From positions 1 to 64,000 of the forward strand of contig CAJIYK010000006.1 of assembly GCA_905181685.1 (NCBI GenBank): a stretch of 64,000 bases of DNA, in the 5' to 3' direction. This document shows, piece after piece, positions 1 through 12,860 of this stretch. The translations under genes and the position numbers were made by a program. Under the pieces are notes generated by a model. It was given only the letters and a program-made list of their open reading frames with translations, did not search any database and was not told the DNA's origin. Each line of letters begins with the position of its first letter. The stretch's first letter is position 1. This stretch comes from Methylophilales bacterium BACL14 MAG-120910-bin43. GTDB lineage: Bacteria > Pseudomonadota > Gammaproteobacteria > Burkholderiales > Methylophilaceae.

Positions 1-6
1 CCTTCA

Positions 7-1606
7 TTAACCGTTTTCAAGCATTTCTTTTCTAATTTTAGGCGGTGTTTCGAATGTATGGAAAGGTGCTGGCGATGGAACTATCCATTCAAGACCTCTT
101 GCTCCTTCCCAAGATACTGCTTTCGCCTTTTTCCCACCTAACGCACATTTTATTACAATGTAAACAAAGAGTAATTGTGTCAAGCCATAAGCAAATCCAC
201 CGATACTAGATATCATATTAAAGTCAGCAAATTGAATATTGTAATCCGGTATTCTTCTTGGCATCCCTGCTAGTCCCAAGAAATGCTGTGGGAAGAATAG
301 TACATTAGCTGCTATTGTAGAAAGCCAGAAGTGTATCTTTCCTAATCTTTCGTCATACATATGACCCGTCCATTTTGGAAGCCAGTAATATACCGCTGCC
401 ATTAGAGCAAATACCGCTCCAGTAAGAAGAACATAATGGAAAGTGAGCTACAACAAAATAAGTATCATGATACTGAAAATCAACTGGTGTAATCCCTAGC
501 ATCAAGCCTGAGAAACCACCGATAGTAAATAATATAACGAATGCTACTGCAAATAACATAGGAGTTTCAAAGGTCATTGATCCCCTCCACATAGTAGCCA
601 TCCAGTTGAATACTTTTACCCCTGTAGGGACAGCAATTAGCATTGTTGCATACATAAAGAATAATTCACCTTTAATAGGAAGGCCAACAGTAAACATATG
701 ATGAGCCCAAACAAAGAATGAAAGAATTGCAATTGACGCTGTTGCATAAACCATCGATGCATAACCAAATAATGGTTTTCTAGAAAATGTTGGAATAATT
801 GAGGAAACTATTCCAAAGGCTGGTAAGGCTAAAATATAAACCTCTGGGTGCCCAAAGAACCAAAAAATATGCTGGAAAAGTACAGGGTCTCCACCACCAG
901 CCGCACTAAAGAAGCTTGTTCCAAAGTATTTATCTGTAAGAAGCATTGTTACTGCCCCAGCTAAAACTGGTAATGAGGCAATTAATAAAAATGAAGTAAT
1001 AACCCAGGTCCAAACAAATAATGGCATTTGCATTAATGACATACCTGGTGCTCTCATATTGAACACTGTTGCAATAATATTAATTGCACCCATTATTGAA
1101 GATATACCTAAAAAATGGACAGCAAAAATAAGAAATGGGAATGCATCTCCAGTTTGAAGAACTAGGGGTGGATACATCGTCCATCCTCCTGCCGGGCCAC
1201 CACCTTGCATGAAGATTGTGCTGAGAAGTAATGCAAAAGCAAATGGCAGTATCCAAAAACTCATGTTATTCATTCTAGGTAAAGCCATATCTGGCGCACC
1301 AATCATTAGCGGTATCATCCAATTTGCGAGACCTACACCTGCTGGCATAACTGCACCAAATATCATTACTAACGCATGAATGGTCACCATAGAGTTATAA
1401 AATTGAGGGTCTACAAATTGTAAGCCTGGTTGAAACAACTCAGCACGAATAATCATGGCCATAGCACCACCAACAAAAAACATTGTCAGCGCAAATATCA
1501 AATATAACGTACCGATATCTTTGTGGTTAGTAGAGAAAAACCAACGTTTCAATCCGGTTGGCTTGTGATCATGATCATGATGTGTGTCTTTTGCTAATGT
1601 GCTCAT
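7..1606 (-). CDS. coxA: Cytochrome c oxidase subunit I (aa3 type), one frameshift
   Basis: Catalytic heme-copper subunit of the terminal oxidase in the inner membrane, reducing O2 and pumping protons. The N-terminal frame (1606 down to about 440) starts with a His-rich stretch, then FFSTNHKDIGTLY. It carries the HPEVY segment that holds CuB and the cross-linked Tyr, and ends in HDTYFVVAHF. The remaining 131 residues (VYYWLPKWTGHMY onward) are in another frame. One extra G at about 438-439 explains the break: removing it restores the expected VAHFHYVLLTGA join. The repaired length of about 532 residues is normal for the family. It lies 29 bp after coxB in the same operon, and the rest of the operon runs off the left edge. 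The family call is certain; that the break is a sequencing error is inference. Confidence 0.95.
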
Positions 1607-1635
1607 AATTGCTTCCTAAATTAAAATTTTAAAGA

Positions 1636-2776
1636 TTATTTTGTTTGATTCTTTCTTGCTTCAGCTACTTCTTTTGGTTGTATAAGGTCACCCGTATTAT
1701 TTCCCCAAGCATTTCTCTCGTATGTGGTTACTGTCGCAATTTCAACGTCAGATAAGTTGGTCACCAAATTTTGGCATTAATTTTTACCGTAAATAATTCT
1801 GTACAGGTGCTCAAGCGTATTTTCTTTTTTTAATGCAATTTCGCTTCCAGCTAGAGCTGGAAAGGCACCAGGAACACCTTCTCCATTTGCTTGATGACAC
1901 ATTAAACATTGTTTTTTATACACTTTTTCACCTTCAGCCATTGATTCATCCATTGTTAAAGTTTTATTTTGTGATTCTAAAGCAGCAAGTTTTAATGCTT
2001 TTCTATCATCAATCCACGCTTCATAATCCTCCATTGAAACAGCTTTAACAACAATCGGCATATATCCATGTCCTTTACCACATATTTCAGTACAATTTCC
2101 TCGATAAGTTCCAGGCTCTTCAATAATTGCCCAGTTATCATTTATAAATCCAGGGATAGCATCACGTTTCCAACCAAGCTCAGGAACCCACCAAGCATGA
2201 ATTACATCCTCGGCAGTTGTTAAGATTCTTAATTTTGTATTAATTGGAACACAAGCGGCTCATCTACATCTAGTAAGATAATTTTCATGCTCCATTGGAT
2301 TTTGTCCAGAATCCCTTTGAGCAACTTCTTGGCTTTTGGAATCAAGTGAGCTATATAAAGTAATATCTTCATCCAAGATAATCATATTTCCATTTCCATT
2401 GAATGCCGGTAGCCTTAATGGTTATTTTTGCTTCGGATGTATCATCCATTTTAATTAGTAATTTCGTTGCGGGAATAGCTAGTGCAATAATTATTGCAGT
2501 TGGAACTATTGTCCATATAATTTCTACTGTTGTGCTGTGAGAAAATTTAGAAGCCTTAACTCCCTTAGATTTTCTATGATGGAATATTGACCAAAACATA
2601 ACACCAAATACTAATATGCCAATTACAGTTACCACCCAAAGTGTAAGCATGTGCATATCATAAATTTCTTTACTGATTGGAGTCACGCCTTGAGTCATGT
2701 TAAGACCCCAGTCAGCTAATGCCGTGAGTGGAGTTAATAGTATAAGGCCAAGAAACTTTTGATAAATTGATTTCAA
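1636..2776 (-). CDS. coxB: Cytochrome c oxidase subunit II with C-terminal cytochrome c domain, several frameshifts
   Basis: CuA-bearing electron entry subunit of the oxidase. The readable pieces in order are a signal peptide (residues 1-21), two membrane helices (LTLWVVTVIGILVFGVMFW and IIWTIVPTAIIIALAIPATK), GIQWKWKYDY, a CuA region with CTEICGKGHGYMP, and a cytochrome c domain with the heme motif CLMCH. The tail ends in NQTK. Breaks of one base sit near 2372, 2275, 2250, 1780 and 1760; each can be repaired to the family consensus (for example the CuA domain stretch LLDVDEPLVVPINTKLR). The repaired length is about 380 residues. The fused heme c means cytochrome c electrons can enter through an attached domain, as in many betaproteobacteria and caa3 enzymes. 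Five indels in one gene make it a good test case for sequence quality. Confidence 0.93.
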
Positions 2777-3039
2777 TTTGAAATACCTTTAAGTTAAATT
2801 AATTATTATACAAATTTCATTACTAAAGCTATTTTAAGGACACAACAAAAGCCATTTAAATTCCAACAAAATTAAACATTTGAGAATATTAACTCAGATT
2901 TTTTCTGATATTGTTAACAAATTGTAACAATTTTATCAGCAAAAAAAAAGTATTTCAATTAAACATACATACATTTTTTTAACATTTATTAAATCTTATT
3001 TTAATAAAAGATTAAATTACTTGATTTTAATTTTCCATA
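2777..3039. other. AT-rich intergenic region before coxB
   Basis: This 263-bp gap is extremely AT-rich. On the minus strand it holds a TATAAT at 2805-2810, 29 bp before the coxB start, without a convincing -35 hexamer at 16-18 bp. It also holds a perfect 10-bp palindrome TTGTTAACAA in the 2913-2930 area and a small hairpin TCAGA/TCTGA near 2893-2907. No open frame or RNA gene was recognised. It probably carries the cox promoter. Confidence 0.35.
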
Positions 3040-3498
3040 TTAAAATCTTTTTAATAATTTAAACAATTTTTTTCTATTCTCTTCATTTACTTTTGTTCCA
3101 ATATAGGTTTTTTTACCCGACCTTGATATATAAATCTCTGAATGTTTTAATTAGTTGGGGGATTAAAATAAAATTTTGACCACTCTTTACAAATTTCACA
3201 CTAGATATTTTTTTCCCTTGAACAAAAGAAATTTCTATTTCAGTTGGCCTATTATAATCTTCTTCATAGAACGTACTCTTTAAAGCAGTTATATATAATG
3301 CATATCCTAAGAAAATTGTTTCAACTCCATAAAATGGAATTGCTAAATAAAGATTTATATAACTTAAAACAATTGCGATGATTAGGATTAAAATAACAAA
3401 ACAAAGATATATTTTTTTTATTAATGACCATGACATTGCAGGATTAGGCCGAACAATAATCTCATGTGTCTCTGGTTTTATAACTTATGTTCAATCAT
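3040..3498 (-). CDS. DUF2244 family inner-membrane protein, two frameshifts
   Basis: The intact core (3113-3436) has two membrane helices (about IYLCFVILILIIAIVLSYI and AIPFYGVETIFLGYALYI), the second being the DUF2244 signature, then a soluble domain. The core lacks both ends of the family, but they are present in other frames. Upstream, HEIIVRPNPAMSW leads back to an ATG at 3496-3498 with a one-base slip near 3480. Downstream, SGKKTYIGTKVNEENR continues to a TAA at 3040-3042 with a slip near 3117. The repaired length, about 152 residues, is normal for DUF2244. It precedes coxB in the same orientation, as commonly seen in betaproteobacteria. The biochemical role is unknown; location suggests a link to the oxidase. 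Confidence 0.7.
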
Positions 3499-3520
3499 GA
3501 TTAAATTTTTTAATACTTAT

Positions 3521-3607
3521 TGGTGCCGAGAGAGAGAATCGAACTCTCACGCTGTTGCCAGCGCGGGATTTTGAATCCCGTGCGTCTACCAGTTCCGCCA
3601 TCCCGGC
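3521..3607 (-). tRNA. tRNA-Leu (anticodon CAA)
   Basis: An 87-nt cloverleaf can be folded by eye. The acceptor arm GCCGGGA pairs with TCTCGGC with one G-U pair. The anticodon stem CGGGA/TCCCG encloses the loop TTCAAAA, giving anticodon CAA (reads UUG). There is a long variable arm GCTGGCAACAGC typical of class II tRNAs, a T arm with GTTCGATTC, and an encoded 3' CCA. A candidate -10 TATACT lies at 3621-3626 with a weak -35 (TTTCCA) 17 bp upstream, which places its promoter inside the start of queA on the other strand. Confidence 0.95.
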
Positions 3608-3633
3608 TAAATAAGCCGTAAGTATATCAACCA

Positions 3634-4689
3634 ATGACGCTTATGGAAATCGATGATTTTGATTATGAACTCCCAACAAACTTAATTGCTCAGCAACCTC
3701 CAAAGGTCCGCGGTGACAGCAAATTATTGATTGTAAATCCAAACAAAACTAGCCTAATAGATAGTCATTGTAAAAATTTTTATGACTACTTATCTCCCAA
3801 TGATCTATTAATTTTTAATGATACCAAAGTAATTAAGGCAAGATTATTTGGAGAAAAAGCAACGGGGGGAAAGGTTGAGCTTTTAATAGAAAATATCATA
3901 GATCCTAATCATGCACTTACAATGATTAAAACTTCAAAAAAAATACATATTGGTCTCAAAATATTTATTTCTAAATCAATTTTTTTAGAAGTAACAAACT
4001 AGATGAAAAATTATTCCGTGTTAAATTATTTGGATCTACTTTTACAAGGTTGCTTGAAGAATTTGGTCATGTCCCACTACCTCCATATATCAATAGGAAG
4101 GATGAAGCAGAAGACTTAGAAAGATACCAAACTACGTTTGCTAAAAATTTAGGTGCAGTCGCAGCTCCAACAGCTGGGCTCCACTTTACAGAAAATGATT
4201 TCATAAGATTTAAACAACATAAAATTAGCTATAACTTTTTAACACTGCATGTAGGTTCTGGGACATTCCAACCTGTCAAAACCAAAAATATTTCTGATCA
4301 CCAAATGCACTTTGAATATTTTAATATCTCTGAACAGCTCAAAAGACCAAATTCTAAATACTAAAAAGGAAGGTGGTCGTATTATTGCGATTGGAACAAC
4401 TTGCATGCGTGCACTTGAAGCGTCATTTATGGATAATGAAATTAAAACTGGTAATCAAAAGACTAATATATTTATAACACCTGGATATAAATTTAATATT
4501 GTTGATGGTTTATTCACTAACTTTCACCTTCCAAAAAGTACACTTCTTATGTTAGTGTCTGCTTTTGCTGGGTATGAATTTACAAAAAAAATATATACTC
4601 ACGCCATTAGTAAAAAATACCGGTTCTTTAGCTATGGTGATGCAACATTTATTGAACAAAAAATGCTTAAAGAAGACTTATATAAATAA
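3634..4689 (+). CDS. queA: S-adenosylmethionine:tRNA ribosyltransferase-isomerase, two frameshifts
   Basis: Transfers and isomerises the ribose of SAM onto 7-aminomethyl-7-deazaguanine in tRNA, giving epoxyqueuosine in the queuosine pathway. Family segments read in order: [82 protein letters not shown] and [20 protein letters not shown]. The frame breaks near 3997 (missing A in an A run) and near 4341-4345 (extra A). The repaired length of about 351 residues is normal. Two in-frame ATGs (3634, 3643) are possible starts; neither has a clear Shine-Dalgarno. It is divergent from tRNA-Leu. Confidence 0.93.
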
Positions 4690-4713
4690 ATAATTAAAAT
4701 TGGAATAATCGAA

Positions 4714-5587
4714 ATGAAAAAATTGCTACTTGTTTTATTATCAACCGCTACAGTTTTTGCAAGTAACATCAACGCCGAAATTAAAGAACAGGCAGAGCTG
4801 GTTTTTAAGATTCCTCTAAAAAAACAACCAACAACAAGGCCTCAAACACTCGCCTATATTCCAGTAGAAAAAAAATATTATATCGCTGATGGTGGATTAG
4901 CGCCCATGGGCTCTAACAGTCAGGCTCCAATATCAAAATCTTTAATCCATACATACGATGACAAGGGTAACTATATTGAATCCACCCGACCCGGCTTTGA
5001 TAACCGATCAATTTATTTCAACACCAAAAAAGCTGAACTGGAAACAATTACATACAATGTATCAGCTTCAGCTGGATTTGCTCCTATGACAGGAATCTAT
5101 CACTTTAGAACTTGATGACGATGGATTATTAACAGGTAAGTCAAACGATATTATCAATACAGTTTTTGCTTTTGAAAGTTCCGGCACAATGCCATCTTAT
5201 GATGGTAAAAATAATCTATATTTCGCAAAACAAGAAAAATCTAACAAGGTCATCGTTGTAGATGCAGAGGAGTTTACTGCTAAAAAAACAATAGAACTTG
5301 ATTTCAAAACACCAAATGTTAAGCCCTATGACGTTGCAAGTCATTTTATCGCTTTCACAGATGTTAAAGATAACGAATTGATTTTACTTGATGTTGAAAA
5401 TAAACGATTTTTGATTTATGACACCGAAGGTACATATAAAGGAGAAAGTAAGTTACCTAAGAAATTAAAGTTACGATCAAAAAATTACTTCAACGGGCTA
5501 GGTTACACGCTAAACGGATATTACTTTGTTTATATTGACTCTGAAGGTGAGTTTGGCACTTATCATGCATACAAGGTACTGGACTAA
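4714..5587 (+). CDS. Secreted protein of unknown function, propeller-like, one frameshift
   Basis: I do not recognise the family. A clear Sec signal peptide covers residues 1-21 (hydrophobic LLLVLLSTATVF, then NINA). The mature part has repeated short beta-strand patterns such as KKYYIADGGL, NNLYFAKQEK, NKVIVVDAEEF, NELILLDVENKRFLIYD and GYYFVYIDSEGE. Their spacing recalls SMP-30/NHL-type beta-propeller blades. The frame breaks near 5093; after it the reading continues ESITLELDDDGLLTGK into the second half, giving about 290 residues. Its stop codon abuts the proS stop with no spacer. No cysteines or lipobox were seen, so it is probably a soluble periplasmic protein. Function is open. Confidence 0.65.
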
Positions 5588-6820
5588 CTAATTCTTAAGT
5601 TTAACTAACAGCTCCTCAAAATTAATAATACTTGAGCCTTGCTCACTTCGTCCTTTGTACTCATATTTGTTCTCTTTTATAGTTTTATCGCCTACCGTCA
5701 CTCTATGAGGTATGCCGATTAGATCAGCTTCACTAAACATCACGCCTGGGCGGAGACCTCTATCATCTATAAGGACATCAAAGCCCTGTTTAATTAAGTC
5801 ATCATAAAGTTTATCTGCATAGCTTCTCACTTCCTTATTTTTATCATATCCAATGGGCGTGATAATTACTTCGAAAGGTGCAATTGATGGAGGAAAGATA
5901 ATACCGTTATCATCGTGGCTTTGTTCAATTGTCGCTGCCACAATTCTTGAAACACCAATACCATAACAACCCATGATGACAGGTTTTGATGAACCATCTT
6001 CTGCAATAAAATTAGCAGACATTTTTTCGGAATATTTTGATCCTAATTGAAAAATGTGACCGACCTCAATCCCTCGGCATGTTTTAAATTTATCAATATT
6101 AGGGTTATCTTTTGCTAATTCAATATTCGCAGCATAATCAGAATGCTCATCATAGACTAGAACGTCTTCGCCAGACTCTGCAAGAACATGAAACTCGTGA
6201 GATGCATCACCTCCGATAGCCCCATTATCTGCTGATACAGCTCTAAACTTTAATCCAATACGATTAAATATATTCTCATATACCTTAAACATTTTTTGGT
6301 ATGTTTCTTTGAGGCAATCAAAATTGGTATGGAATGAATATGCATCTTTCATTAAAAATTCTCTTGCCCTCATAACGCCAAACCTAGGTCTTATCTCATC
6401 TCTAAATTTCATTTGAATTTGGTAGAAATTGATAGGTAATTGTTTATAGCTGTTAATTTCCTTTCTTATGATATCTGTTATCACTTCCTCATGCGTAGGC
6501 CCAAAACAAAACTCTTTCTCATGCCTATCTTTAATTTTTAACATTTGAGGACCAAACTCCTCCCAACGTTCGGACTCCTTCCATAAGTCAGCTGGCTGAA
6601 TGGCTGGCATTAAAAGTTCTATGCAACCTGCTTGATTTAGCTCATCTCTTATAATCATTTCAATTTTTTTTAACACCCTGAGGCCCAATGGCATAATGGT
6701 GTATAAGCCTGACCCAAGCAATCTAACCATTCCTGCCCTTACAAGCAACTGATGACTTAAAAGTTCAGCCTCCGCTGGAGATTCTTTCCTTGTTGCAATG
6801 TAAAATTTTGATGCTCGCAT
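5588..6820 (-). CDS. proS: Prolyl-tRNA synthetase lacking the editing (INS) domain
   Basis: Class II synthetase charging tRNA-Pro. The N-terminus matches bacterial-type ProRS ([20 protein letters not shown]). Motif 2 is seen as [20 protein letters not shown] and motif 3 as [14 protein letters not shown], followed by the anticodon-binding domain ([19 protein letters not shown]). At 410 residues it is about 160 shorter than the usual roughly 570. The missing part is exactly the insertion domain between motifs 2 and 3: [10 protein letters not shown] is joined by about ten residues to [12 protein letters not shown]. The frame is intact on both sides, so this is a true deletion and not an indel artefact. 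It is the last gene of the yoaA-to-proS operon, 3 bp after holD. Confidence 0.95.
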
Positions 6821-6823
6821 TTT

Positions 6824-7279
6824 TTAATTATTTCCTTTCATTTCACCTTGTAATGATGATTGAATATCATGCCATAACTTTTTCTTCTTTTCCGGGTTTG
6901 ACAACATTTCAGATAAAGACGGCAATGATTTGATAGTTACATCTAAATCATGTAACCCCATTGAGCTCGTTTCCCCTATCAAGAATATGTGAATTATTGA
7001 GTTCTTCTTTAATATTACATTAATCTCCCCTTCTTCTATATTCCTCAAGTATTTCGAATTTACTGAAATAGAATTCATGTAAACATGAATATTTTTAAAT
7101 AATTCTTTTGCATCAGTGGTTAAATTATCAAGCTCGGGAACTATAATTGAAATATTTAATTCTTTAAAAAAATATAAGCCGACGTTAGATAAGGCATGAG
7201 TAGTTTTTTTTGGACTTTTTTTATTCAGCCAAATTGGAAGTAAATTCAGTTCTTCGTATGCGACTTTTTTTTCTATCAT
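6824..7279 (-). CDS. holD: Probable DNA polymerase III psi subunit
   Basis: A 151-residue protein next to rimI, the place of holD in enterobacteria. The N-terminus EELNLLPIWLNKK and especially the C-terminal segment LPSLSEMLSNPEKKKKLWHD resemble the conserved end of psi proteins, where a short Leu/Pro segment precedes a helix with a Leu-Trp pair. Psi links the clamp loader to chi and so to SSB. Similarity is weak overall, as usual for this fast-evolving subunit, so context carries much of the call. It lies 6 bp after rimI and 3 bp before proS on the same strand. Alternative: an unrelated small betaproteobacterial protein. Confidence 0.55.
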   Translation of the reverse strand: MIEKKVAYEELNLLPIWLNKKSPKKTTHALSNVGLYFFKELNISIIVPELDNLTTDAKELFKNIHVYMNSISVNSKYLRNIEEGEINVILKKNSIIHIFLIGETSSMGLHDLDVTIKSLPSLSEMLSNPEKKKKLWHDIQSSLQGEMKGNN

Positions 7280-7285
7280 AATTAT

Positions 7286-7777
7286 TTAAAAGCTAAACGC
7301 CATTAAAATGGCATCTTCATTTCCATTTGATGTTTTGTAGTAATTTGGTCGAATTCCTACCTCATTGAAACCTTTTTTTTCATATAACAGAATAGCATTT
7401 TTATTTGATCTCCTGACCTCTAAAAATAGATTTGATACTTTTCTTCCTAAACAATTTTTAACTAGGTGACTTATTATAATTTTCCCAAAGCCTTGCCTAT
7501 GAAAATGCTTTTTTACCGTGATATTTAAGAGTTCACATTCATCGGCTGCGAAGCTTGCAATGTAATAACCTATAATTAATTCATCATCTTTTAACACTTG
7601 AAATAGATTGCCAGCACTTATCGAATCAAGAAAATTTGTTTTTGACCAAGGCGAAATATGACAATCTTCTTCAATCAAGACAATTTTTTCTATATCACTC
7701 AACTCTACATTTTTGAAGCTAGATTTTTCTTTCTTTGGCCTTAAGATCAATTTTTCTTTCACTGATAGTTTTGGCAA
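7286..7777 (-). CDS. rimI: Ribosomal protein S18 alanine N-acetyltransferase (GNAT)
   Basis: GNAT fold acetyltransferase. Residues ELLNITVKKHFHRQGFGKII form the strand-loop-helix that binds acetyl-CoA (RQGFGK as the Q/RxxGxG/A motif), followed by LFLEVRRSNKNAILLYEKKGF, the typical RimI end, and RPNYY. The position directly after tsaB supports RimI over other GNATs. The chosen start gives 163 residues with an N-terminal extension overlapping tsaB by 59 bp. No later Met precedes the conserved core, so the overlap looks real unless an indel hides another start. Confidence 0.88.
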   Translation of the reverse strand: MPKLSVKEKLILRPKKEKSSFKNVELSDIEKIVLIEEDCHISPWSKTNFLDSISAGNLFQVLKDDELIIGYYIASFAADECELLNITVKKHFHRQGFGKIIISHLVKNCLGRKVSNLFLEVRRSNKNAILLYEKKGFNEVGIRPNYYKTSNGNEDAILMAFSF

Positions 7778-8418
7778 CGTTATTCCTTATATATATAGGT
7801 GCGGCATTTTTAAGATTAAAATTTTTATCCATCCTTTTTATGCTTAATTGAGCAATTGCACCAGCTAATGGGTATTCATTCTCATCAATTATAACTTTTT
7901 GGTCCTTGGTATTTCTCAATTAGAATTTTTTTATATTCAAAAACACCTGACCCGACGATAACACCATCTAATATATCTAAATTAGGTAAATCACATGGTT
8001 CAAAAACACCGCTATCAATAATTGGAACGAGCTCACCATTGATCCTCTTATATGCGCCCATATATAGCTCTCCCATCCTTGCATCTACGCAAGGTATGAC
8101 AACACCTTTATCTACTTTTTTGGCAATGGCCTCTAGATTATTGATTCCTACAATAGGTAAATTATGAGCATATGCAATACCGTATGCCACACCAGCAGCA
8201 ATTCTGACCCCTGTAAATGATCCTGGGCCTGCGCCAAAGGCAACACCATTAAGATCACCAAAATTAATGTCACTTTTATCCATTAATTTTTTTAACAAAG
8301 GCAGAATATTTTCAGAATGTTTTTTATCAGATGAATACGATTCCTCTGTTAGAGAATCTTTTTTTAGTAAGGCAATAGATAAAAGTTGACCCGAGGTGTC
8401 GATTGATAAAATGTTCAT
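7719..8418 (-). CDS. tsaB: tRNA threonylcarbamoyladenosine protein TsaB, one frameshift
   Basis: Non-catalytic partner of TsaD in t6A modification of ANN-decoding tRNAs, of the ASKHA fold. The N-terminus MNILSIDTSGQLLSIALL and the segment GVAFGAGPGSFTGVRIA are the family hallmarks. The first frame ends at 7885; the C-terminal part (EYPLAGAIAQLSIKR, PIYIRNNVAKTISERK) follows in another frame, with a one-base break between about 7905 and 7925. The repaired length is about 232 residues. Its ATG overlaps the stop of yoaA as ATGA, implying coupled translation. tsaC, another t6A gene, is at 31781 in this window. Confidence 0.9.
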
Positions 8419-10359
8419 TCTAACTCTTCCAAAAAATTAATAACGGCAGATTCATTCCTTGTTCTCTTAAAAGGAGGGAGGCTTTTCCAAATCTTAATAC
8501 CGTATGACTTTTCAATAATTCTTTTATCACAAATAACCATAACCCCTTTATCATTATCGTCCCTTATAAGCCTTCCCACCCCCTGCTTAAGCCTTATGAT
8601 CGCTTCAGGCAGTTGCATCGACATAAAAGCATTTATCCCCTCTTCAGATAATAATTTAATTTTTGATTCAAATACAGGATCTCCTGGTGATTGAAATGGA
8701 AGCTTATCAATTATAACTAAACTTAATGCCGGACCCCTTACATCGATACCCTCCCAAAAACTTAATGAACCAATTAAAATTGCATTTCCATGTTTTTTAA
8801 ATTGCTGCAATAAGTCACTTTTAGGACCCTCTCCTTGTGTGATTACTGGATAATTAATTTCATTTTTTTTGAGTTCATCTTTTAGTAAAGCACCAATTTC
8901 CTCCATTGATTTTAAGCTTGTTGCCAAAACGAATGCCCTGCCTTTCGATGCTTTGAGGAGGGGTAATGCCTTTTTAACTAGAACTAAATTGAATAATTCA
9001 TCTTTTGAATCTGGGATTTCTTTTGGCACATATAAAAATGCATTTTCACTATAATTAAATGGACTTTGTAAATATTGGGTCATTGCTTTTTCAAGTCCGA
9101 GTAGCTTTACAAAGTGATCAAAGCTCCCATTGATCGATAAGGTTGCCGAAGTGAATATCCATGCACTATCACTTTTCTCTTGAAATTTATTAAATTGTTC
9201 AGAAATACTTATAGGAGTTTCATTAAATTGAACTGTCCGGGCAAAAACCTCTAACCAATAAATATTATTTTGATTATCTTTTTTCAACCAAGAGCTAAAT
9301 TTTATATTAAGCTCCGTAGATCTTTCGAACAGCTTTTGTAATTCTGCATTTTCCTCAGAATGCTTTGATAAAGTAATTCCTAATAATTCTAATTTTTCAA
9401 TTAAAGAATTATAAGTTTTTTCAAAATTTTCGTAGTTCTTAAGATTGTTGATATTTAGTCTGGCTGGAAATGGGCTTACTATTTTTTTTAACTCAAAAAT
9501 AATTTCTTGTAAGTCTTTTGATAAAGCATCCAAAACCTTTATGGTATCTGGATATTTTTTTAATCCTTGTTGACAGTCTTGGATTAAATTAGATATTTGA
9601 CTAGAAGAAATGAATTGGCCTAGAAAAAAAGATGCAACCAAAGGGATTTGGTGGGCCTCATCAAAAATTATTGTATTTGCTTTGGGGAGAATCTCTGATA
9701 ATTCTTCATCTTTTAAGAACAAAATCAGCAAAAAATAAATGGTGATTTACTATAAGTACCTCTGATTCTAGTGCCTCTTTACGTGCTTTTACTAGAAAAC
9801 ATTCCTTATAAAATTCACAATCCTGCCCCAGACAATTTTCCTTTGTCGAAGTGACCATTGGCCATATAGTTGAAGTTTCTGGTATTTCACTAATTTCAGA
9901 CACCTCACCGGAATCGGTATTATCTGAAAAAGCCTTAATTAAATGTAAATGTTGGGCATCTTCTTTGTTAAAAAACATGCCCTCCTGAATTGTATTTTCC
10001 ATCCTGAGTTTACAAATATAGTTTCCTCTTCCCTTTAAAATATTTACCTTCACGGAGATTTTAAGAGCCTCTCTTATTTTAGGAATATCGTTAAAAAAAA
10101 GTTGGTCTTGTAAGTTTTTTGTCGCAGTTGAAATAACAACCTTACCGCCCTTTAAAAGTGCAGGATATAAATAGGCAAAGGTTTTACCAACACCCGTTCC
10201 AGCCTCTACAACTAGTGATGATTTGTCTTTAATCGTGCCAATAATAGATTTTGCCATTTCAACTTGCTCGGTCCTTAGCTGATAATCTTCGAGGCAATCA
10301 TTTAAAGGGCCATTTACACTAAAAAAATCGTCAGTCGTAGAATTTTGATTGGCAGTCAT
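8415..10359 (-). CDS. yoaA: DinG/YoaA-family Fe-S DNA helicase, one frameshift
   Basis: XPD-like superfamily 2 helicase acting in replication repair. Walker A is VVEAGTGVGKT, the DEAH box IIFDEAHQ, and late motifs are GSLSFWEGIDVRG and QGVGRLIRD. Four cysteines suited to an Fe-S cluster are seen at YIC, ENCLGQDC and KECF. The frame breaks near 9717 through an extra A in a run; the repaired join is FADFVLKDEELSEI, giving about 647 residues. In E. coli yoaA is next to tsaB and its product pairs with HolC, which also binds HolD. Here tsaB follows with a 4-bp overlap and holD is two genes further. DinG is the alternative name; size and neighbours favour YoaA. Confidence 0.88.
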
Positions 10360-10507
10360 AGTTTTAAAGGGTAACTCACATGGAACTTAAATTCATAAAT
10401 ATATGTCAATTCAGGTTAATAAAGAATTATTTTTTTATAAAGTATTTATGCATTAAAATATTACTAATTCTTATATATTCTTTTAAAAATCAAAAAAGGT
10501 TCAATAG

Positions 10508-11904
10508 ATGCGTTCAAAATTTGAAAAATTTTCACTTGTATTAGGTGGTGCCTTAATAGGTATTTTATTTACATTCAACCTTCCTGTATTTGCCGACAAA
10601 AATAATCCAAATAATTTACCCATTGATAAGCTGAGAACTTTCGCAGAAGTATTTGGTAAAATTAAATCGGATTATGTTGATCAGATTGGAGATCCAAAAT
10701 TACTAGATGAAGCTCTTAAAGGCATGCTATCTGGACTTGGACCCACATTCCGTCTACCTCGATAAAGATAAATATAAGGATCTATCACAAGGTACTGCCG
10801 GTGAATTTGGTGGCTTAGGAATTGAAGTAGGAATGAAAGATGGATTTGTTGAAGTCATTACGCCAATCGAGGACACACCAGCATACAATGCTGGTCTCAA
10901 GAGCGGTGATTTAATTATCAAGCTTGATGATACCTTAGTAAAAGGGCTCACCTTAAATGATGCCGTTAAACTAATGCGTGGCAAGCCAGGTACCTCAATT
11001 GATATTAGAGTTCTTCGAGAAGATGTTGTTGATCCAATTGATATCAAAATCACTCGAGCGCAAATTAAAACTAAAAGTGTTAAAGCTAAGCTAATAGAAC
11101 CGGATTATGCTTATCTCAGAGTTACACAGTTCCAAGATAGGACGGGTGAAGATTTAGCTAAAGCAATTAAAAAATTAAGGAAAGAAAATAAACATGCATT
11201 TAATGGGATCATTTTGGATATGAGAAACAATCCCGGTGGCTTACTAACTCAAGCGGTATCTGTTTCAGCTGCCTTTCTTGGTGATGATGAGTTAGTTGTT
11301 TATACCGAAGGACGTGCACCTGATTCTAAAATGCGCCTTACTACAGCACCAGAAAATTATATTAGACCAGGTGGTGATTTCGAAAAAAATAATTATATAA
11401 AGTCTCTACCTAAAGATATTAAGGATGTTCCTATGGTAGTCATCATTAATAATGGGTCTGCTTCAGCAGCTGAAATTGTAACTGGCGCTCTTAAAGATCA
11501 CAAAAGAGCAACTATATTAGGTACTCGCAGCTTTGGTAAAGGTTCGGTTCAAAGCATACTGCCAATGATGAATGGTTCAGCGATCAAATTAACTACAGCT
11601 AGATACTTCACACCAAATGGAACATCTATCCAAGGGTAAAGGAATCGAACCAGATATAACTGTTAAAGATGGAACTGAATCACTAGCTTATCGCGAGGAA
11701 GATATACCTGATAGCCTCTCAAATCCACAAGATAAAGGTAAAAAAGATGACAAACCCGTAACAAATGGACCGACACCTGAACAAAAAGAAGCGCTTAAAA
11801 ATTTCAAGCCTATTAAGTTTGGTACAGATGAAGATATCCAATACGTTGAAGCACTTAAGATTCTTAAAGGAATGGGTGATCAAGCTTCAATGTTAAAAAA
11901 TTAA
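10508..11904 (+). CDS. ctpA: C-terminal processing peptidase (S41), two frameshifts
   Basis: Periplasmic serine protease with an N-terminal signal or anchor helix (LVLGGALIGILFTFNLPVFA), a PDZ domain (GGLGIEVGMKDGFVEVITP to VLREDV) and the S41 catalytic core. The nucleophile Ser is in NNGSASAAEIVTGAL and the Lys in GTRSFGKGSVQ. Breaks lie near 10738 (extra G, SGLDPHSVYLD on repair) and near 11634 (extra G, SIQGKGIEPDI on repair). The repaired length is about 465 residues. Such proteases trim the C-termini of envelope proteins and cell-wall hydrolases. It is divergent from yoaA across 148 bp, which should hold both promoters. Confidence 0.92.
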
Positions 11905-11910
11905 AAATAA

Positions 11911-12535
11911 ATGGTCATCGACAAATTTATTGATGAAATTGAGTTTGGGTTAAAAATCTTATTTAGCCCAAGCTCTTCAAAAGACCTAGACCCGATAAAA
12001 AAATCCTAAATAAACAAGACCTCAACTCTGAGATTAAGAAAAAACATGCTCAATTAATGAGAGTAAACCATTCAGGTGAGATTTGTGCACAAGCTCTTTA
12101 CAGGGGGCAACTACTCTTTAATAAGATAAATCGATTGAAAAAAGTTTACAAAAAGCAGCTAATGAAGAAATTGATCATCTTGCTTGGTGTGAAGAAAGGA
12201 TTGATGAGTTGAATGGAAAAACTAGCTTGCTAAATCCTATTCTCTATATAGGTTCAATTGGAATTGGGGGTATTGCGAGCATCATTGATAAAAAATATAA
12301 CTTAGGTTTTTTGGCTGAAACAGAAAAACAGGTTTCCTCTCATCTCGATAAGCATCTTGTTAAACTCTCTAAATATGACGTCAAGACAAAAAAAATTTTA
12401 GAGCAGATGAAGTTTGATGAGCACCAACATGAAATTTCTGCGAAGGAATTAGGTGCTGCCGAACTGCCAAAACCAATAAAAAAAGTTATGGGCATTACAT
12501 CAAAAATTATGACTACGTTAACCTACAAGATTTAA
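11911..12535 (+). CDS. coq7: Ubiquinone hydroxylase Coq7, two frameshifts
   Basis: Di-iron carboxylate enzyme adding the C6 hydroxyl in ubiquinone synthesis. The iron-ligand segments are MRVNHSGEICAQALY, NEEIDHLAWCEERIDEL and FDEHQHEISAKELGAAELP, which contain the E, ExxH, E and ExxH ligands. The first 30 residues run from ATG 11911. The frame then breaks near 12000 and near 12123, and the third frame carries the rest. The repaired length is about 207 residues, as in other betaproteobacteria. It fits with the oxidase at the left end and with hemF: this organism respires oxygen. It begins 6 bp after ctpA. Confidence 0.88.
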
Positions 12536-12540
12536 TTATT

Positions 12541-12860
12541 ATGACTCAATCATTCAAACAGGTTTTAAATGCTCTGCCCGACATTGAGCACATAGAAAAA
12601 ATTAATCTTTATGATCAAAATGATAATTTAGTCGATGTCATTGAAAATATGCAAGGGACCCAAGGGTCATTGAAGGTATATTTTTATTTATATAAAAATT
12701 TCAAAGAAATAAACTTTGCTGCAGCTCAAAAGGCTTAGAACTATTTTCGGAACATACAGCTGAGGCAAAAAAAAATCCCGGTAGTCATCCAAATATTGAT
12801 CGCTTGATTAATATAGTAAAAACTAACGACACCCTTAGGGTTGAAACTATTCTTCGCTAA
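12541..12860 (+). CDS. DUF2322 family protein, one frameshift
   Basis: A small protein of about 106 residues with the DUF2322 pattern: LPDIEHIEKINLYD, GTQGSLKVYFYLY, and after the break GLELFSEHTAEAKKN and PGSHPNIDRLINIV. The break is near 12735, where one A is missing from an A run. No catalytic motif is visible and the function of the family is not known to me. It begins 5 bp after coq7, and its last 14 bp overlap the end of the convergent OsmC gene. Confidence 0.75.

Follow-up and report, generated by a model that had tools for sequence, protein, structure and literature searches.

A prolyl-tRNA synthetase without its INS editing domain in the OM43 clade of the Methylophilaceae

Is any known proofreading of proline tRNA left in a bacterium whose prolyl-tRNA synthetase (ProRS) lacks the INS domain, which normally removes alanine from mischarged tRNA(Pro)? 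This question is raised by the proS gene in a 64,000-nucleotide stretch of contig CAJIYK010000006.1 (the window) from Methylophilales bacterium BACL14 MAG-120910-bin43, a betaproteobacterium of the OM43 clade (family Methylophilaceae). The reading that we favor, with a probability of roughly 0.6, is that a single in-frame deletion in the native proS removed INS from the OM43 clade, that no known editing of Ala-tRNA(Pro) is left and that the resulting error is tolerated.

The short proS gene and its junction

proS (5588..6820, minus strand) is an intact open reading frame (ORF) for a 410-residue ProRS, with an ATG start and zero internal stops, as established by family matches and a check of frame and stop. 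Pfam recognized only the class II core (PF00587) and the anticodon-binding domain (PF03129) in the protein, and no tRNA_edit domain (PF04073). Against PRK09194, the NCBIfam model of proline--tRNA ligase (559 positions), the protein matched in two stretches with 637.3 bits (cut-off 558). It thus combines the class II core, anticodon-binding domain and equivalog score of a bacterial P-type ProRS. No INS editing domain was found between motifs 2 and 3, either by a PF04073 search of the protein and its own genome or by alignment. The score with PRK12325, the model for the alphaproteobacterial mini-INS enzymes, was 549.1 bits (cut-off 550); this model is non-discriminating, because 133 of 199 genomes of the phylum pass its cut-off, many of them with long enzymes.

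In the alignment, 12 residues (237-248; 6077..6112, minus strand, computed from the residue numbers) fill the INS position, where the nine INS-bearing members of the genus have ~160. The compared junction region measures 56 residues, versus 205-207 in these congeners, whose full-length proteins (561-566 aa) exceed the window ProRS by 151-156 residues. The ProRS alignment left out duplicates (L059, L061-L064, L066), the broken L099, the truncated L018, the mis-started L054, and L114 and L137, which gave no ORF. In the INS-bearing congeners the junction stretch ends in SPDESGKLKFC or SPDGKGQLKFC; several OM43 relatives carry HPDKDKLKTC or a near variant at the same end (aligned by eye). A short hinge from the end of the INS domain thus seems to have been left behind in the OM43 enzyme. 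A structure model of the window ProRS (mean predicted local distance difference test score 71.6, with residues 1-43, 139-154, 200-203 and 356-362 under 50) matched the bacterial ProRS chains 8w8j and 5ucm best, with 2i4l ranked 7th, and adds little.

The short form is widespread in the genus. Among 31 genomes, including the window's own, 17 have an intact short proS, one a broken short copy (G029) and nine a long proS; in four none was found. One of the 17 is G014, Methylophilales bacterium HTCC2181, which is described as an OM43 isolate (PMC6794327); by analogy with it, the window organism is presumably marine. The nearest genome, G018, consists of a single contig, and its proS is 97% identical to the window's over 410 aa. 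A second proS was sought in three short-form genomes: G018 and G014 show only proS and a match at the level of threonyl-tRNA synthetase (ThrRS), and G019 gives an additional weak match (E 6e-5).

An assembly collapse that deleted the INS-coding DNA would find some footing in the quality of the contig, since positions 1-12600 of the window carry 33 small indels, mostly of one base, relative to G018 (~12.6 kb). None of the 33 lies inside the proS reading frame, one falling in a T run directly next to the start codon, and the same intact short form recurs in 17 of the 31 genomes, including the single-contig G018 and HTCC2181. We therefore reject this explanation as practically excluded: the missing INS domain is confirmed and is not an assembly artefact. 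A first reading from sequence alone (the sequence-only reading) had named such a collapse as what would overturn it; its description of an intact gene about 160 residues short, with the gap at the INS site, holds.

The indel pattern as such resembles uncorrected sequencing error. Several genes are interrupted in the window but whole in G018, among them two that we take to be queA and dinG, names recognized from the sequence and not by family search. Such errors may explain why the window's own genome is listed as 51% complete.

Origin of the short enzyme

Over the core, the window ProRS is 65-69% identical to the nine INS-bearing congeners and 59% to E. coli ProRS. In contrast, the OM43 short enzymes, the window's included, share only 47-51% with the alphaproteobacterial short enzymes and ~50% with those of SAR86. 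In a tree built from the columns outside the junction (L131 and 14 duplicate or near-duplicate rows omitted), the 17 short enzymes formed one group (support 100/99) adjoining the nine long enzymes of the genus (100/98), and both together were supported at 100/100; 14 alphaproteobacterial mini-INS enzymes formed a separate group. We also compared 13 diagnostic core positions, at each of which one residue predominates in 26 long enzymes and another in 27 alphaproteobacterial short enzymes (fixation of at least 90% in either set). The OM43 enzymes were long-type at 11 of these, mixed at two and alphaproteobacterial-type at none. The alignment and tree proposed by the sequence-only reading thus place the short enzymes beside their INS-bearing congeners and not with the alphaproteobacteria, in keeping with its statement that the rest of this betaproteobacterial sequence is close to the long type.

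Gene order around proS was likewise shared between the two forms. The series dinG, tsaB, rimI, a psi-like gene, proS, a small unknown gene and queA was found in the window, in the short-form genomes G018, G019, G014 and G017, and in the long-form genomes G003, G008 and G007 (G003 and G007 gave no psi-like match at the cut-off used). G029, with its broken proS, keeps the order, with matches for every gene except the psi-like one. Outside the genus, the INS-bearing G031 keeps the order (no psi-like match), and G036 keeps the queA side only.

A marker tree of five proteins, covering 25 genomes of the genus and five others of the family, required one change of state. This was a quick tree without bootstrap; G002, G004, G008, G010, G025 and G029 lie outside it, and marker gaps affect pheS and pheT (G000, G021, G033), rplT (G000, G021) and infC (G018). 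The names infC, rplT and pheS were assigned from gene order and not by family search. G013 (L077), in which proS was not found, sits within the short clade of this tree, and a short proS is predicted there.

Core identity, gene order and diagnostic residues agree in favoring vertical descent with deletion, and one in-place deletion would be the simplest reading of the short proS. The direction of change is taken to be a loss, since INS is present in the remainder of the family. The rival origin, by which a short proS from an alphaproteobacterium or from SAR86 replaced the native gene, draws on approximately unbiased (AU) tests of the core columns: these reject neither a joint group of the OM43 short enzymes with SAR86 (p 0.387) nor one with the alphaproteobacterial short enzymes (p 0.199), and a grouping of all long betaproteobacterial enzymes apart from the short ones is likewise unrejected (p 0.126). 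In contrast, a group of the long enzymes of genus and family that excludes the short ones is rejected (p-AU 1.9e-05); the last two tests additionally omit SAR86 and G169. Together with the difference in core identity, the unchanged chromosomal neighborhood, the agreement with the long type at 11 of 13 diagnostic positions and a junction that differs in each short type, this makes a transfer highly improbable, even with the joint groups unrejected.

Back-up proofreading and the active site

Free-standing editing proteins were sought with PF04073, which we take to span INS, YbaK and ProXp-ala, in agreement with the Caulobacter control. The search returned matches in 12 of 14 control genomes. Among 61 relatives, 39 had a match: all nine long-form congeners, all six other members of the family and all 24 of the order. 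Each long-form congener had a single copy, which is the INS domain inside proS (9/9). In contrast, the 18 short-form genomes, the window's own included, gave no PF04073 match, and neither did the four without proS. In a family set of 122 genomes, consisting of the window's own and those at least 90% complete, 111 had a match. The 11 without comprised eight with a short proS (all among the 18) and G575, G587 and G589, which are split into 250-450 contigs and have best proS E-values of 1.6e-55, 2.9e-10 and 1.0e-12, respectively, which suggests an incomplete or absent proS. The loss of YbaK probably preceded that of INS, because the long-form congeners show one PF04073 match where many larger relatives show two.

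A trans-editing protein of the INS superfamily was thus not found in any of the 18 short-form genomes, eight of them seen again in the family set. The sequence-only reading had suggested a stand-alone editing protein elsewhere and a search for YbaK/ProXp-ala-type domains; that search yielded none within this known family. A free-standing enzyme that is non-homologous or highly divergent could still edit Ala-tRNA(Pro) in trans. Several editing folds are reported to exist (PMC11295145), and the search for trans-editing covered PF04073, tRNA_SAD and B3_4 only. This alternative is nevertheless improbable: the PF04073 search works, with matches in 12 of 14 controls and in 345 of 396 genomes drawn from the phylum; the gene adjoining proS is psi-subunit-like; and tRNA_SAD occurs in at most two copies per short genome, as expected for ThrRS plus alanyl-tRNA synthetase (AlaRS), with no sign of a spare AlaX.

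Other editing domains were mostly retained. Two copies of tRNA_SAD (ThrRS, AlaRS) were seen in 14 of 17 short genomes and a single copy in the other three, and the B3_4 domain of phenylalanyl-tRNA synthetase was found in 15 of 17, the exceptions being the incomplete G000 and G004. Neither domain was found in G029 (broken proS, 47% complete). The loss of editing looks proline-specific, with no general decay among the domains tested (Ala/Thr and Phe).

Genome streamlining, the cause proposed by the sequence-only reading, is weakened by a comparison of genome sizes. The seven short genomes of the 90% set (the window's own aside) measure 1.2-1.3 Mb. At 1.2-1.4 Mb, seven INS-bearing congeners of that set and nine genomes of genus g264 all keep PF04073. 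Genome shrinkage alone is insufficient to account for the loss, because relatives of equal size keep INS.

Loss of INS would be harmless if the synthetic active site had become more selective against alanine, so that editing was no longer needed. A 2024 review states that loss of the editing domain can accompany higher substrate specificity in bacterial-type ProRS (PMC11415595). In the OM43 enzymes, none of the 13 diagnostic positions is alphaproteobacterial-type, and all 17 retain H110 and C443, the alphaproteobacterial H110N and C443S being absent. One conjecture is that H110N and C443S tighten the active-site pocket of the alphaproteobacterial enzymes; if so, their absence argues against a similar tightening in OM43. 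No variation occurs among the 17 short enzymes at E. coli positions 109, 111, 140, 157, 159, 443, 445 and 450. Of the positions with at least 90% fixation among long enzymes, only three (E. coli 401, 430 and 521) differ in the majority of the short ones. A more selective site is possible but less likely. For E. coli, with ~168 uM Ala versus 9 uM Pro and an effective discrimination of ~1200, editing of Ala-tRNA(Pro) is described as likely required (PMC10164551).

According to the deletion reading, the ancestor of the OM43 clade would have undergone a single in-frame INS deletion at the native proS locus, with the catalytic and anticodon-binding domains left intact and a short linker in place. 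Since the INS-bearing congeners also yielded no YbaK, no INS-superfamily protein that we could detect would then be left to clear Ala-tRNA(Pro) or Cys-tRNA(Pro). The short enzyme would work, charging proline normally, and Ala mischarged onto tRNA(Pro) would be edited by no known route. The resulting error may be low or harmless enough to be tolerated, perhaps by way of a favorable ratio of the proline to the alanine pool; pool sizes, release of the wrong adenylate or sheer tolerance are what we would favor as the short enzyme's reliance. Judging from sequence data, mistranslation tolerance in short-proS bacteria is possible.

Several points weigh against this reading. Beyond the unrejected AU groupings and the review cited above, the branch uniting all 16 short genomes in the marker tree has a Shimodaira-Hasegawa-like approximate likelihood ratio value of 94, just below the 95 mark, and change counts alone cannot separate gain from loss. 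At 51% listed completeness, the absence of PF04073 from the window's own genome is weak evidence, and the case rests on the relatives. A non-homologous editing protein would be invisible to the PF04073 search.

Known systems, wider distribution and neighboring genes

The INS-bearing ProRS enzymes of the genus (561-566 aa) share the locus of the short form and have the closest core sequence; they differ by the INS domain, in which the residues corresponding to K279 and H369 of E. coli are retained (9/9 each). The alphaproteobacterial mini-INS enzymes (PRK12325; Rhodopseudomonas palustris 2I4L; Caulobacter crescentus) resemble that of OM43 in having a P-type core and anticodon-binding domain without a full INS. 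Their compared region is 85-87 residues long, as against 56 in OM43, and the OM43 enzymes are closer to the long betaproteobacterial ones (long-type at 11 of 13 diagnostic positions). A ProXp-ala has been published for C. crescentus (PMC3973320), and Caulobacter vibrioides matches PF04073, whereas the OM43 short genomes do not. In Mollicutes, as in OM43, ProRS reportedly lacks cis-editing, and YbaK, ProX and AlaX homologues are reported to be absent (PMC4014445). Unlike OM43, these parasites are reported to have a ProRS of the archaeal/eukaryotic type and, in several species, damage to other editing domains (PMC4014445), whereas OM43 keeps those tested.

SAR86 provides a further case. The metagenome-assembled genome AG-313-D02 encodes an INS-less ProRS of ~426 residues, and PF04073 was found in none of 61 genomes of the SAR86 family (completeness unstated). 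A proS match was present in 58 of the 61: the frame is open (423-437 aa) in 55, partial in G480 and G505 and broken in G486; G474, G489 and G495 gave only ThrRS-level or weaker matches. SAR86 is thus like OM43 in its INS-less proS, the lack of a PF04073 match and its small genomes. It is unlike OM43 in its junction, which, read in one genome, keeps SPDGKG within a compared region of 69 residues, and in its core, which is ~50% identical. Because the junction differs, the SAR86 loss was probably independent of that in OM43. We suggest, tentatively, that at least two abundant free-living ocean lineages, OM43 and SAR86, may have independently dropped all known proline-tRNA proofreading and kept their other editing domains (checked in OM43 only), and hence might carry measurable Ala and Cys at proline codons.

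In a 2013 paper, 34% of bacteria were reported to have a ProRS without a functional editing domain, many of them using ProXp-ala (PMC3973320). Among the other members of the window's class in our phylum draw, 169 of 170 had PF04073, the exception being G169; this hand count rests on the 20 listed of the 51 genomes without a match, the remaining 31 being assumed to belong to other classes, as the list order suggests. In the rest of the phylum, lack of a PF04073 match is more frequent (~49 genomes, 31 of them unlisted). The INS-less state is not unique to OM43, since some of these, such as G064, G107 and G123, have a short ProRS. In G169 (L103; 2.1 Mb, listed completeness 100%), the ProRS is 520 aa long, its INS region is shortened and lacks the K279 position, and PF04073 gives no match; this INS is perhaps decaying.

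A literature search that covered few subscription journals returned no paper discussing the INS-less proS of HTCC2181, and nothing on Methylophilaceae prolyl-tRNA synthetase, Pelagibacter ProRS or SAR86 prolyl-tRNA. The gene itself is not new, as the HTCC2181 sequence is public. What we rate as new is another type of junction in an INS-less P-type ProRS, from a free-living lineage that yielded no INS-superfamily protein. A cultured bacterium with such an enzyme and no detected back-up, whose close relatives carry INS at the same locus and at equal genome size, constitutes a natural experiment. The question why proline proofreading is kept or lost thereby becomes directly testable, apart from parasitism and genome size.

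The neighbors of proS are conserved in synteny. On the upstream side, rimI (7286..7777, minus strand) scored above the cut-off of TIGR01575, and beyond it lies a gene (7885..8418, minus strand; PF00814) that we read as tsaB-like. On the other side lies the queA-like gene (3634..4689, plus strand), recognized from its sequence, which is broken into three frames in the window and forms one in G018. Between it and proS, 4714-5587 holds a gene split by an indel, with weak beta-propeller-like matches below the cut-off, whose place is conserved in the family.

The immediate upstream neighbor (6824..7279, minus strand), a fast-evolving gene 3 bases upstream of proS, had a weak Pfam match to the DNA polymerase III psi subunit (PF03603, 23.4 bits, cut-off 22.2). 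It gave no NCBIfam match and no editing family was found in it; by the weak Pfam match it is psi-subunit-like, and we rejected it as a hidden editing protein. In the larger relative G031, the same place is occupied by a 291-aa ORF that, from a reading of its sequence, resembles uracil-DNA glycosylase and has a similar N-terminus.
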